The position numbers and the translations under genes were made by a program. A DNA stretch of 49,329 nt, taken from NCBI GenBank assembly GCA_013139985.1, contig WSZT01000064.1, forward strand, positions 1 to 49,329. The letters are read 5' to 3'. The notes beneath the pieces are model-generated. The model saw nothing but the letters and a program-made list of their open reading frames with translations. It was not told the DNA's origin and searched no databases. Positions 27,458 through 37,039 of the stretch are shown here, piece by piece. Positions within the stretch are counted from its first letter, which is position 1. Each line of letters begins with the position of its first letter. Origin of the DNA: Candidatus Methanophagales archaeon. Lineage in GTDB: Archaea; Halobacteriota; Syntropharchaeia; Alkanophagales; Methanospirareceae.

Positions 27458-28924
27458 TTAAAGAGGAAGGATAGTTAATACCTTCTTCCCTTTTTCTCGT
27501 GCCTTTTTCTCTTCCTCTTGATCCCAGTCAGTATTAGGAGAGGGTAAATTCAGAGGGTCTGGCGTTTCTCCGTCCTTCCACAATGTTACAACAGGATGGT
27601 GTACACGCTTAAGAAACTCCCTCAGTCCTTCTGCGTCTATGCAGTCTTCCTCTGTTGCGATTTTGTCAAACATCTCTGCGGGAATGGATTCCGTAAGAAT
27701 TTGCTTATATTCCTTTGGTATCCATACTATACGATTCCATCCACCATCGGCACGAACAAATTTACGCGATCTCGGCGTTCTAGAAGATATGCCACAATAT
27801 CCATGATTCTGCTGTCCGCCACTTATAAGCCCCGCGAGTTTAGAGAATGTCACACCCAAAGGCGTTTCACCCCCATATCGCCGGTCTACCAGACCCAAGC
27901 CATCAACATCGGGAATATAGAATATGGCAGCTTCGAAACATCCGCAATTCGTCTGCGGATATGTAATCGAGGAATACATAACCACGCGTTTGTAAGTCCG
28001 GTTTGACTTCTCATAGATCTTTTCATTTATGCCCGTGTATTCTCCGCCTTCGGGGTCAACGCATTCGCCCTTCGGCATCTCAAATATATATCCATACGGG
28101 TCAAGGTCACACATTACTTTTGCGCCTATCCATGTGATTATCCCGCAATAGGGCGGTCTATCCGGTGCAACTGCGCATACATGACTCGGCGCGAATGTCT
28201 GGCAGATAGTGCAGCCATAAAAGGTATCTGCGTCACCGTCAGAAAATGCCCTCGCACGCTTATCCACTCGCTCCCAGTAGGGTGTGCAAACGTTATCTAT
28301 TATTCCCTTTGTGAGTTCGGACCCACCTAGATCCTCAGTAGCTATTAGAATCTTCGCATCTGCCTTCTCTACCAGAGGGAACTGTATCTTGCAGAGATTT
28401 ATCATCGCTTGGCCAAGGTGCTCAAAATCATGTTTAGCTGCATCTTTTTTGTGCAATCGCAACCATATTGTGTCGCGGGTATTAAGTAGCATCCACCCTT
28501 CCCCTTCTTCCAATGCGAAATACGTCCATCGAGTAAGCAAATCAAGATAATCTTCTGTTAATTCCTTACCATAATACCGTATCCAGAAACCAAAAGGCAG
28601 CGATTGCCCTTCTATTTCCTTTATCTCTGGTCCTATCACCTCCACGCGTCCATCTTCTATCTTGTCCTCCCCTTTCACCACCTCGATAAAGAAGAAACTA
28701 CTGTATCTCTGCTTCGGACCACCTAACTCGCAATACATGTCATGCTTCCTCACCCTCTGCCCGGCCTGCCGTGGTGATATGTCATAGGAGATTCCCGTGA
28801 AAAAATCGTCCGGATTCGTTGGTACGTGATAAACCTTACCTTTGGGTAAGGCATCCCATATTTCTTGCCTATCTCTCGCTTGTTCTTCTTGTTCTCCTTC
28901 TTCTGTCAGCTTCGCTTTTGTCAT
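27458..28924 (-). CDS. cdhC: Acetyl-CoA decarbonylase/synthase beta subunit (ACS)
   Basis: CTICQTFAPSHVCAVAPDRPPYCGIITW... and TNCGCFEAAIFYIPDVDGLGLVDRRY (A-cluster region), GGQQNHGYCGI. Confidence 0.95.
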   Translation of the reverse strand: MTKAKLTEEGEQEEQARDRQEIWDALPKGKVYHVPTNPDDFFTGISYDISPRQAGQRVRKHDMYCELGGPKQRYSSFFFIEVVKGEDKIEDGRVEVIGPEIKEIEGQSLPFGFWIRYYGKELTEDYLDLLTRWTYFALEEGEGWMLLNTRDTIWLRLHKKDAAKHDFEHLGQAMINLCKIQFPLVEKADAKILIATEDLGGSELTKGIIDNVCTPYWERVDKRARAFSDGDADTFYGCTICQTFAPSHVCAVAPDRPPYCGIITWIGAKVMCDLDPYGYIFEMPKGECVDPEGGEYTGINEKIYEKSNRTYKRVVMYSSITYPQTNCGCFEAAIFYIPDVDGLGLVDRRYGGETPLGVTFSKLAGLISGGQQNHGYCGISSRTPRSRKFVRADGGWNRIVWIPKEYKQILTESIPAEMFDKIATEEDCIDAEGLREFLKRVHHPVVTLWKDGETPDPLNLPSPNTDWDQEEEKKAREKGKKVLTILPL

Positions 28925-28936
28925 CTTGTTATCCTC

Positions 28937-31393
28937 CTATTTTATATCCTTCCTCGTTATCAACCTCGGCACGAGCGTCGAATACCTGCCCAATTGTATC
29001 CCGTATCTTTTGTTATACTCTTGCATATCCATCAGTTCCCCGGACCTATGCCTTGCCCGCTTTATCTTCATACCTTCTATCTCCCAGCCATGTTCCTGCC
29101 CTAACTTCCTCAGTAATTCCGCACGCCGCATCACATGCAATTCCTGCTCTGATCGCACATACAAATGCCAATCATCAGAATACTCACCAAAGAAGTTTTT
29201 ATATGCTTCGTTCTCCGCTTCTAAACTCGCAAGTCTTGGATCCCGCAACGCAAGCGGTCGGTGCAATAACTTAGCACACATCGCTATTGCTTCCTCTTTC
29301 GTATCCACAGGCACGAGCATGTGCATAGGGCATGGCTCAACCTCTTTCTTCTCGCCCGTAACGCCGTCATACATCCACCACTTGCTCCTGTCATCTTTAT
29401 CACCCAAAAAATATCTTTTGAACTTGAAGCCGGAAGGACCGATAACTACCGGTATGCCTGACCTCACGAGTCCCGCTGCGATTGCGTACATCTCCTCTGT
29501 CGCGGCACCCCACATTATAACTACTACGGGTAATCGTGCATAGAGATAATCGGCAATCTGCGTCCAGTTTGCCTTTGGTGTGTATCCACTGCCGACCAAC
29601 GCACCGCGATAGATCGCCGCGGGCACATGCGAGATAGCAGTGCACCCGCCAAAATTCACCAACCCTTTTAGCACGCCTGCCGCGATGTATTGCTCGAATA
29701 AAAAACCGTTTTCATCGAAATATTTCGCAACATCTGCGGCAACGCAGCCGGAAACAGTGACAAGAGCATTTCGTTCCAGAAAATATCGTGCCATTTCCGC
29801 TACTTCGCGCTCTGAACCCGGATAATTCCCACACCCGATAATGTTAATCATCCCGGGACCGTTACCACCGAGGATAATCCCAAACGTCAAGTCTCGCCAC
29901 TCTAATTCTGACATAGGACCCCTGCCAGCACGCATAAGATATTTATCCCCTTTTAGCTTACCTGTTGTAGCCGCAGCACTCATAATCAAATCCATAATCG
30001 GAACTCCTTCCGGGCACGCTTTCTCACACAGACCGCAAAATATACAGTTATCGTAAATAGCTGCGAGTGCGTTCACGTCATCCATCGCCTTGCTTATTGT
30101 CTGCTTATTTGGACATACCTGGGTACAGAGGTCGCATGAGTTACATTTTGACGCTTCTTTCTTTAGCTCAGCCAACAAGTAGTTCTCTTTTCTCTTACCT
30201 TTTTGTTTTATAGCAATCGCCAATTTAACAGCAAGTTCGCCCGCTTTCTCCGGAATTGTTATCCTCACGCCTGGCAAGTCATTTTCCATTACATTTTTAA
30301 GTATATCCTCCACAGAATCATCAGATCGGTCTTCTAACCCACTACCCGCTTTATATCCATATGCAACCACTTTCGCATCTACTCGCTTCGCTTCTGCCAC
30401 CAGATCAAAATCCAGACATGTCTCACTGGCAACAACTACATCTGGTATGCCCGCTCTTGTCACCTTCCTTGCCTTTACTGCGGATGTGAGAACCTTCCCC
30501 CCGTTATAAAATCGCGGTATGTCATGCCCTACCGCACCCACGCCACAGATCTCTATTGCATCTTCTAACCCCTTTGCCTTTACGTGCTCAACGGCGAACC
30601 ATGCAGGTAGGAAATTATTGCCGAAGAAAACTATAACCGGTTTGGTTCTATCAACTGTACCCATCCCCACCTCAATCTCAACAGGCGGGGAATCAGAATA
30701 TTCCGTTGCCGGATGTTTACCCGCATTGAAGAACTCAAAGCAGCACATCTTTATAGTTTCCGCTATCTCCATCGCAAGGAAGGTAAGGGCGCCTGCATGC
30801 AGTGCCTTCTCTTCAAACTCTAATACGCTCTCAGCCCCGAAATAAGCGGCGAGTAATAACTCTGATAGTTGTGCTTCTGCGTATGATAACGCTCCATCCA
30901 TATCATCTAAATTCTTCGTGTAAAATCCCGTTAGCATGGATGTGTTCATCGTGGGATACGTGATCGAACTACCCATGTCAATCTCCCTATCCCGACCGAA
31001 GACTTTTATAGCGAATTCGAGCAAATCACGCGCAAATGTTAATTGCTTAAACAGCCCTTTACATGTGTCCTGCAAGCTTAGCTTAGCTTGGTTTGACTCT
31101 TCCATAATTGTGGGGGTACTTGGTATGCTAGTATATAAGGGGTGATACCTGTTCAGAAGCACACTATCCCATTCTGCGATGTCCGATGCATGTGCTAAGA
31201 TATTCAATTTTGGTTTCCATTGTTTCACCCGCCTTTCGCCCATCTCCTTAATTATATCTGTCGCGATGTCCTCCACTCCCCGTAGGTCTCGCACCACTTC
31301 TTCGAGGTCCACTTCACAATCGCCCACTTTCACTATCTTTTTATTCGCTTCTTTTTCACCTGCTCTCAACGTAGCAAATCTCTCAGGCTCCAT
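28937..31393 (-). CDS. cdhA: CdhA-like CODH/ACS alpha subunit homologue, divergent
   Basis: Two ferredoxin-like motifs (CNSCDLCTQVCP, CIFCGLCEKACP), IIGCGNYPGSEREV, VTVSGCVAADVAKYF, NFGGCTAISH, LRKLGQEHGWEI. N-terminal CxxC cluster not seen. Confidence 0.85.
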   Translation of the reverse strand: MEPERFATLRAGEKEANKKIVKVGDCEVDLEEVVRDLRGVEDIATDIIKEMGERRVKQWKPKLNILAHASDIAEWDSVLLNRYHPLYTSIPSTPTIMEESNQAKLSLQDTCKGLFKQLTFARDLLEFAIKVFGRDREIDMGSSITYPTMNTSMLTGFYTKNLDDMDGALSYAEAQLSELLLAAYFGAESVLEFEEKALHAGALTFLAMEIAETIKMCCFEFFNAGKHPATEYSDSPPVEIEVGMGTVDRTKPVIVFFGNNFLPAWFAVEHVKAKGLEDAIEICGVGAVGHDIPRFYNGGKVLTSAVKARKVTRAGIPDVVVASETCLDFDLVAEAKRVDAKVVAYGYKAGSGLEDRSDDSVEDILKNVMENDLPGVRITIPEKAGELAVKLAIAIKQKGKRKENYLLAELKKEASKCNSCDLCTQVCPNKQTISKAMDDVNALAAIYDNCIFCGLCEKACPEGVPIMDLIMSAAATTGKLKGDKYLMRAGRGPMSELEWRDLTFGIILGGNGPGMINIIGCGNYPGSEREVAEMARYFLERNALVTVSGCVAADVAKYFDENGFLFEQYIAAGVLKGLVNFGGCTAISHVPAAIYRGALVGSGYTPKANWTQIADYLYARLPVVVIMWGAATEEMYAIAAGLVRSGIPVVIGPSGFKFKRYFLGDKDDRSKWWMYDGVTGEKKEVEPCPMHMLVPVDTKEEAIAMCAKLLHRPLALRDPRLASLEAENEAYKNFFGEYSDDWHLYVRSEQELHVMRRAELLRKLGQEHGWEIEGMKIKRARHRSGELMDMQEYNKRYGIQLGRYSTLVPRLITRKDIK

Positions 31394-32098: not shown

Positions 32099-33583
<1,485 letters not shown>

Positions 33584-33595
33584 AAATTTTTTTAA

Positions 33596-33631
33596 AACCA
33601 ATCAGAGCTGAAAGAGTATCAAGTTAGGTTT
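33596..33631 (+). other. 3' arm of the 16S precursor processing stem (BHB-like)
   Basis: aaccaatcaga-GCTG-aaa-gagtatcaagttaggttt. Confidence 0.75.
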
Positions 33632-33686
33632 GGGGTCTAGTTTAAATCATAGCATATCAAATAAGCAAATAGCTGGGATAAATTTG

Positions 33687-33758
33687 GGGCTCGTAGATCA
33701 GTGGAAGATCGTCGCCTTTGCGAGGCGAAGGCCCTGGGTTCAAATCCCAGCGAGTCCA
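33687..33758 (+). tRNA. tRNA-Ala (anticodon TGC)
   Basis: GGGCTCG...loop TTTGCGA...GGTTCAAATCC...CGAGTCC A; acceptor, anticodon and T arms fold; located in the 16S-23S spacer. Confidence 0.97.
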
Positions 33759-33845
33759 TGTTCCTGAAATGTGAATGCACCTAACGACTTGCTTGTTGTT
33801 AGGGAAGTTACAGATGGCAGTTGCTGTCAGATGAAGTTATCATAC

Positions 33846-33881
33846 GCACTTTGCAACTCAGACATTTAATGAGCTCAGCAA
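33846..33881 (+). other. 5' arm of the 23S precursor BHB processing stem
   Basis: GCACTTTGCAACTCAGA-CATT-taa-TGAGCTCAGCAA pairs with 36835-36870. Confidence 0.85.
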
Positions 33882-36834
<2,953 letters not shown>

Positions 36835-36870
36835 TTGCTGGGTTCAGATGAAATCTGAGTTGTGAAGTGC
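36835..36870 (+). other. 3' arm of the 23S precursor BHB processing stem
   Basis: TTGCTGGGTTCA-GATG-aaa-TCTGAGTTGTGAAGTGC. Confidence 0.85.
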
Positions 36871-36966
36871 ACTTTTTCTTTATTTTTCTCTAATTTCTGA
36901 TGGTTTTTATATCGGCAAAAGGTTTTTCTTTAATCAAACTTTCTTCACCTTATAAGGGAAGTTTGT

Positions 36967-37039
36967 GCCAAGGTGGCGGAGAGGCACACGCGGCTGACTG
37001 CAGATCAGCTATACCCCGGTTCAAATCCGGGCCTTGGCT
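36967..37039 (+). tRNA. tRNA-Cys (anticodon GCA)
   Basis: GCCAAGG...GCTGA CTGCAGA TCAGC...CCCGGTTCAAATCCGGG CCTTGGC T; U73 discriminator expected for Cys. Confidence 0.96.

Follow-up and report, generated by a model that had tools for sequence, protein, structure and literature searches.

The window, our term for the whole 49,329-nucleotide stretch of DNA analysed here from a Candidatus Methanophagales archaeon, carries an 818-aa paralog of the CODH alpha subunit CdhA on its reverse strand (28937..31393, (-)), and 12 bp downstream of it a CdhC-like acetyl-CoA synthase (ACS) beta subunit of 488 aa (27458..28924, (-)). The first-pass annotation had described the larger gene as an intact, long open reading frame that is CdhA-like along its whole length, and both points hold. 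The protein scores 533.5 bits with TIGR00314, which falls short of the NCBIfam cdhA equivalog cut-off of 781 bits, and its closest solved structures are the archaeal CODH alpha chains 8riu (the nearest), 9c0q and 3cf4. The neighbouring CdhC scores 430.9 bits, above the cdhC equivalog cut-off of 355.95. An archaeal rRNA operon (16S, tRNA, 23S, tRNA; window 32102-37039, (+)) lies directly beside the pair, and this rRNA-side neighbourhood recurs in three other genomes of the window genus, as judged by common flanking frames.

An AlphaFold model of the modified CdhA, a check proposed at first pass, was built from 34 sequences (pLDDT 89.6, pTM 0.92); it superposes on 8riu over 728 residues at 2.1 Å (Z 52) and has the CODH alpha fold over its full length. 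A further match of the model is to the N-terminal domain of bacterial ACS (Z 34), and this CODH-like part of bacterial ACS may be taken as a precedent for a non-CODH domain that serves ACS. The genome (2.1 Mb in 248 contigs, 87% complete) was also searched, as proposed, for a canonical cdhA. Because contig C237 carries a canonical cdhA-cdhB and contig C172 a canonical cdhC, the modified CdhA and its neighbouring CdhC constitute a second set.

The altered C site

Metal ligands were located in an alignment of the window protein with 16 modified relatives from whole genomes, canonical ANME-1 CdhA, 3cf4 and 8riu, to which bacterial and additional archaeal relatives were added as later rows; reference numbering follows Carboxydothermus CODH-II (Ch), with Mb positions given for His. 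Of the six canonical C-cluster ligands (one His and five Cys), the window protein retains four and has lost exactly the exo-iron pair. N259 (30617..30619, (-)) occupies the position of the ligand His (Ch His261, Mb His250) and A287 (30533..30535, (-)) that of Cys295, the exo-Fe ligand; we take His261 to be the other exo-iron ligand from general CODH knowledge and the parallel His259 in CooS-V. The cubane ligands C326 (Ch Cys333; 30416..30418, (-)), C521 (Ch Cys446; 29831..29833, (-)) and C550 (Ch Cys476; 29744..29746, (-)) are kept, as is C584 (29642..29644, (-)), the counterpart of Ch Cys526, which is a Ni ligand in CODH. The residues of CO chemistry have been replaced as well, with E634 (29492..29494, (-)) at the position of the catalytic Lys563 and Q117..D123 (QLTFARD; 31025..31045, (-)) at that of the acid-base HxxHxxH motif.

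This pattern extends across the family. Our ligand table covers ANME-1, Alkanophaga, Dehalococcoidia and Desulfobacterota with 34 modified rows, 33 of them distinct (L105 and L052 are one gene); all four cubane cysteines stand in each of the 34, while His261, Cys295 and Lys563 are absent from every row and the acid-base residues are replaced throughout. The lost His is substituted by N, D or S, and Cys295 by A, P, S or Q. Near the altered site, W628 is kept, as is H589 in most modified members. In an alignment of 34 rows (28 modified and six canonical), four of the six ligand columns are invariant, compared with 47 of 818 columns overall (hypergeometric p = 1.3e-4). The ligand pattern is not due to chance, since these four columns are invariant while the other ligands and the acid-base residues are replaced throughout.

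These results sharpen the initial reading, according to which some C-cluster ligands were lost. The His and Cys295 are indeed gone, but all four cubane cysteines remain; the IIGC, VSGC and GGC motifs had been noticed without the conclusion that they mark four retained C-cluster cysteines. Equivalent residues at the B-, C- and D-cluster positions, which would have spoken against the initial reading, are found for four of the six C-cluster ligands, so that the C site is altered and not erased. The individual substitutions listed at first pass fared differently. The change from LCCTAID to VGAVGHD is a true ligand loss, its second Cys being Cys295 (A287 in the window). The change from SGSLDH to AGALTF is not, given that canonical ANME-1 and Ethanoperedens CdhA have MLDS there and the ligand His sits in GHN. 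Nor is the Cys of GACGLAWGA a ligand, as 9c0q has Val at this position; the real loss nearby is that of the catalytic Lys (SQKA to TEEM, E634). The LDH and GAC positions were accordingly rejected as ligands, being variable among canonical enzymes.

Cys295 of CODHs is a ligand of Fe1, the exo iron that sits next to the [Ni3Fe] cubane; when it is changed to Ala in CODH-II (C295A), the enzyme is Ni-deficient and inactive in CO oxidation, with slightly raised hydroxylamine reductase activity (PMC9311411). Alanine occupies this very position in the window protein, which supports, by inference, the earlier suggestion of a non-CO-oxidising protein, with the site geometry taken as equal in the two proteins when the mutant data are carried over. 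On this comparison, the modified CdhA very probably does not oxidise CO.

Stepwise loss of the other clusters

The B/D-cluster cysteine region is missing, as first reported: a shortened remnant (residues 88-96; 31106..31132, (-)) stands at its canonical place, and apart from C111 there is no Cys between residues 27 and 216. D-cluster cysteines are absent from all modified members. Alkanophaga, the tabulated bacteria and several ANME-1 genera have the B-cluster CxxC...C...C motif, which the window protein lacks; on the tree it is missing from the window genus, the G015/G023/G035 group and G012, a distribution for which a single loss does not account. The E- and F-cluster ferredoxin motifs (C417, 420, 423, 427 and C450, 453, 456, 460; 30014..30145, (-)) are complete in the window and kept in nearly all relatives, and may mediate electron transfer there.

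An ortholog of the window protein in G012 (L050:6982-9240; 752 aa, with no internal stop) lacks the whole E/F ferredoxin region and has a Cys-Ser-Pro-Ser repeat inserted behind its GPS motif. In this protein, known from one assembly, the B, D, E and F ligands are all gone and the four-Cys site alone remains. Cluster loss in the family is thus stepwise (D in all members, B in several lineages, E/F in G012), with the four cysteines kept throughout.

The partner ACS

The CdhC next to the modified CdhA has a complete set of conserved A-cluster cysteines (C238, C241, C250, C260 and C327-G-C329), and these cysteines, including Cys-Gly-Cys, are kept in every ANME-1 CdhC copy aligned. CdhC proteins akin to it (67-96% identity) were found in 18 searched genomes besides that of the window. 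Of the order's 38 genomes, modified alpha and beta are found together in 17, alpha only in none, beta only in two and neither in 19 (Fisher p = 1.2e-8, with genomes taken as independent and shared ancestry ignored); both beta-only genomes are incomplete assemblies. Most members of the window genus have the two genes side by side, and in Alkanophaga a CdhB-like gene stands between them. Elsewhere the alpha and beta genes are mostly unlinked, and they are not neighbours in most ANME-1 genera. Co-occurrence with an adjoining, dedicated CdhC upholds the earlier view that the modified CdhA is paired with ACS. A CdhB-like subunit is clear only in G009, G015, G020, G023 and Alkanophaga, so epsilon seems dispensable for the modified system.

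In Desulfobacterota and Dehalococcoidia, the modified CdhA sits in operons with CdhC, a CdhB-like gene, an unknown protein of ~186 aa, FwdB and FwdD, in varying combinations. Further genes, also varying, encode an Fe-S protein related to the N-terminus of CdhE and chelatase-like AAA+/VWA ATPases, and, recognised by eye from motifs, a CooC-like ATPase and a small Cys-rich, zinc-ribbon-like protein. This gene content suggests a possible involvement of metal-cluster assembly and a formate/CO2 step. We do not claim an Fwd link in ANME-1, where an Fwd gene lies some kb from the modified CdhC on G011 contig C54 and G018 contig C23 and is absent from most contigs.

The ~186-aa protein (c3; L099:10429-10953 and bacterial homologs) is conserved in Alkanophaga and the bacterial operons, and had no match in the ANME-1 genomes searched. 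Its model (pLDDT 87) resembles AF2093 (2ph7; TM 0.50), a likeness that yielded no function.

Distribution, phylogeny and selection

Sixteen other genomes from this order encode orthologs of the modified CdhA (61-97% identity), and the closest named records are proteins of ANME-1/Methanophagales archaea (91-97% identical). A scan of named genomes returned matches in ANME-1/Methanophagales, Ca. Alkanophaga, Dehalococcoidia/Chloroflexi and Deltaproteobacteria, the bacterial homologs being 36-39% identical to the window protein. The phylogeny proposed at first pass sets the modified clade (28 rows) apart from canonical CdhA with 100/100 support and a long stem (0.99). Within it, the bacterial modified sequences form a single branch; L052, a paralog from Alkanophagales, takes the basal position, though its branch is long.

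Pairwise dN/dS in the window's clade is 0.11-0.16 vs 0.04-0.06 in canonical pairs, so the modified CdhA is under constraint, somewhat weaker than that on the housekeeping copy. From its relatives in other archaea and in bacteria it is evident that selection maintains this system and that the gene is not dead.

Several loci are duplicated. The deep-branching L052 belongs to a second modified CdhA-CdhB-CdhC set (L052:5540-9920), from a genome that also carries the L048 set; its alpha and beta subunits are 39% and 45% identical, respectively, to those of the window pair. Two Chloroflexi loci (L107:82-8478 and L115:1135-9298) carry duplicated units of CdhC and modified CdhA, and in one copy His replaces the first E-cluster Cys.

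Candidate selenocysteine ACS in Desulfobacterota

In some Desulfobacterota CdhC genes, the A-cluster Cys-Gly-Cys motif coincides with two in-frame TGA codons (L106:1926-3326; L110:2001-3392, the same as L158; L159; L119:1252-2619). The codons read TGA-GGG-TGA and are followed by Phe-Glu; read-through gives proteins of 455-466 aa in the three examined in full. Downstream of the paired codons lies a SECIS-like hairpin around CAGGTTGATG. SelB is above cut-off in all four genomes with a two-TGA CdhC, and of the three genomes searched for tRNA-Sec, those of L110 and L106 have tRNA-Sec(UCA), whereas that of L119 gave a sub-threshold tRNA match only. These features point to an apparent Sec-Gly-Sec A-cluster, that is, a selenocysteine ACS, in some Desulfobacterota relatives. 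A text search for CdhC in a 2026 selenoproteome review, which names an HgcA/CdhE-type subunit, gave nothing.

The L110 genome also encodes a CdhC paralog with TGT GGG TGT at this site. It retains the hairpin, is preceded by a tRNA that Rfam scores above the tRNA-Sec cut-off but that has the anticodon GCA, and lies near selenium-metabolism-like genes (YedE/YedF type, by eye). Two Cys-codon CdhC paralogs, L167 and L169 / L172 (G059 contig C14), each follow a tRNA with a tRNA-Sec score above the Rfam cut-off but with anticodon GCA, and L167 retains a SECIS-like hairpin. Recoding of Cys codons as Sec in the L167 and L169 / L172 paralogs is possible.

Proposed role

Taken as a whole, the sequence evidence is best read as a CODH-derived subunit that would be unable to interconvert CO and CO2 and would act as the dedicated partner of a second, divergent ACS, a reading to which we give about an even chance. 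The old C site is predicted to hold a plain cubane ([4Fe-4S], possibly [Ni-3Fe-4S]) on Cys326/521/550/584, and the absence of an exo iron there would preclude CO2/CO chemistry. The cubane could be structural, ligand-binding (e.g., gating or delivering CO to the A-cluster) or regulatory; each of these seems likelier than electron relay, because one relative has lost B, D, E and F but kept the C site and ACS. Where retained, E/F may help to keep ACS reduced, and CO would be supplied externally or by the cell's canonical CODH. The claim that the protein is a dedicated ACS partner, and not primarily an electron relay, we regard as about evenly balanced.

The invariant cysteines could still serve catalysis, and the strongest competitor is a new enzyme that would act on small molecules at the altered C site, such as an N-oxide/hydroxylamine or other reductase comparable to HCP and CooS-V, with E/F as its electron source and the ACS link secondary. 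CooS-V sets an example, as a CODH relative with Cys295 changed to Glu that has no CO chemistry and reduces hydroxylamine slowly, and C295A CODH-II likewise gains slight NH2OH reductase activity (PMC9311411); the four Cys, W628 and, in most members, H589 near the site would suit such an enzyme. The mobile-iron His and Glu of HCP and CooS-V are, however, also gone: they are N259 and A287 in the window and N/D/S and A/P/S/Q across the modified rows. When the window protein is aligned with the HCP of its own genome, three cluster Cys align and the fourth is matched by motif only, and the region of HCP Glu494, the third carboxylate, aligns unreliably. Repeated B loss and the single E/F loss also count against a reductase, which would leave the co-occurrence with ACS unexplained, and we judge it unlikely.

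Next comes an electron-transfer subunit for the second ACS, in which E/F and the C-site cubane would feed activation of the A-cluster. ACS requires reductive activation, and the E/F motifs are intact in the window and nearly all relatives. Loss of B in several lineages nevertheless breaks the chain from E/F to the C site, and the G012 ortholog without B, D, E and F still has its four Cys. Electron relay, one of the roles floated at first pass, is thereby weakened as the core function, and we hold it improbable, a shade below the reductase.

A protein that is still a Ni-CODH, its lost ligands replaced by others such as C283 or H290, is far less credible. Both stand no more than four positions from the lost Cys295 and most members conserve them, and CooC-like and chelatase-like ATPases accompany the bacterial genes; yet H290 is Leu or Asp in some relatives, and the residue aligned with C283 is Cys in the canonical CdhA can_L034 too. 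His261, Lys563 and the acid-base His have likewise disappeared, and C295A by itself ends CO oxidation in CODH-II (PMC9311411). A decaying duplicate, for which one might cite the lost cysteines and the scattered gene order in ANME-1, is refuted by the conservation already described (dN/dS of 0.11-0.16, an intact frame, orthologs in 16 other genomes and homologs in two bacterial phyla), which, together with the separate canonical cdhA and the adjoining CdhC, bears out the initial view of a functional change and leaves decay a negligible probability.

Extending the ACS-partner reading, we tentatively propose, as rather doubtful, a second, unrecognised ACS machine across ANME-1, Alkanophaga, Dehalococcoidia and Desulfobacterota, in which a CO-inactive CODH would partner ACS, CO or C1 units would come from elsewhere (in bacteria perhaps from the operon's FwdB/FwdD), and some Desulfobacterota would use a Sec-Gly-Sec A-cluster. 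CODH/ACS is a core, ancient carbon-fixing enzyme, and a lineage that keeps the ACS site while dismantling CODH can reveal how the CODH subunit serves ACS beyond making CO. A 'cdhA' annotation, moreover, does not imply CO metabolism, and the family offers testable protein pairs from methane- and alkane-oxidising archaea.

Comparison with known systems

The window protein shares with canonical CdhA (3cf4; 8riu, from the F420-reducing CODH of Ca. Ethanoperedens, PMC11493965) its full-length fold, E/F clusters, four of six C-cluster ligands and an ACS partner, but lacks His261, Cys295, Lys563, HxxH and the B and D ligands, at ~33% identity. CooS-V of Carboxydothermus is likewise a CODH scaffold that has lost Cys295 and lacks residues for CO chemistry; it differs in keeping the His, in having Glu295, a Fe/S/O hybrid cluster, a [4Fe-4S] cluster and a subunit-bridging [2Fe-2S] cluster, and in being of CooS and not CdhA type (PMC9311411). 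The hybrid CODH/ACS of serpentinite-hosted bacteria, which joins archaeal CdhABC to bacterial AcsCDE, also places CdhA/B/C-type subunits in bacteria; it is likened here by description, not sequence, and its report makes no mention of C-cluster loss (PMC9751293).

No description of the archaeal variant was found in the literature searched, which does not prove absence. A 2026 survey deliberately dropped sequences with altered C-cluster cysteines (PMC13240472), so such proteins are easily overlooked. The nearest precedents are structural groups A-4 (D,P,C,C,C,C) and A-6 (N,S,C,C,C,C) of Inoue et al. 2019, both bacterial, in which the His and Cys1 are replaced; that study left it to be examined if the CODH/ACS reaction is catalysed by groups whose motifs are incomplete (PMC6344411). 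Like the modified CdhA, they have the four-Cys pattern, no D cluster, altered acid-base residues and an association with an ACS beta gene, and they retain E/F, which is incomplete in A-6, whereas the F cluster of the window is complete (PMC6344411). The window protein (N,A,C,C,C,C / Q,E, with no B cluster) matches neither A-4 (D,P,C,C,C,C / Q,R; PMC6344411 Table 2) nor A-6 (N,S,C,C,C,C / H,L, incomplete F), with which it has only the N in common; our L106, L108 and L110 do match A-4. Inoue et al. 2019 was found to contain neither the archaeal branch of the window nor its loss of the B cluster, nor the G012 form without E/F (PMC6344411). The protein is not wholly new, since A-4 and A-6 have the same four-Cys pattern, but those groups were reported from bacteria only and without a mechanism, and to them the window adds a separate, well-supported archaeal branch (PMC6344411). 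Judged by its residue pattern, the window family is an extension of the bacterial structural groups A-4 and A-6 to archaea.
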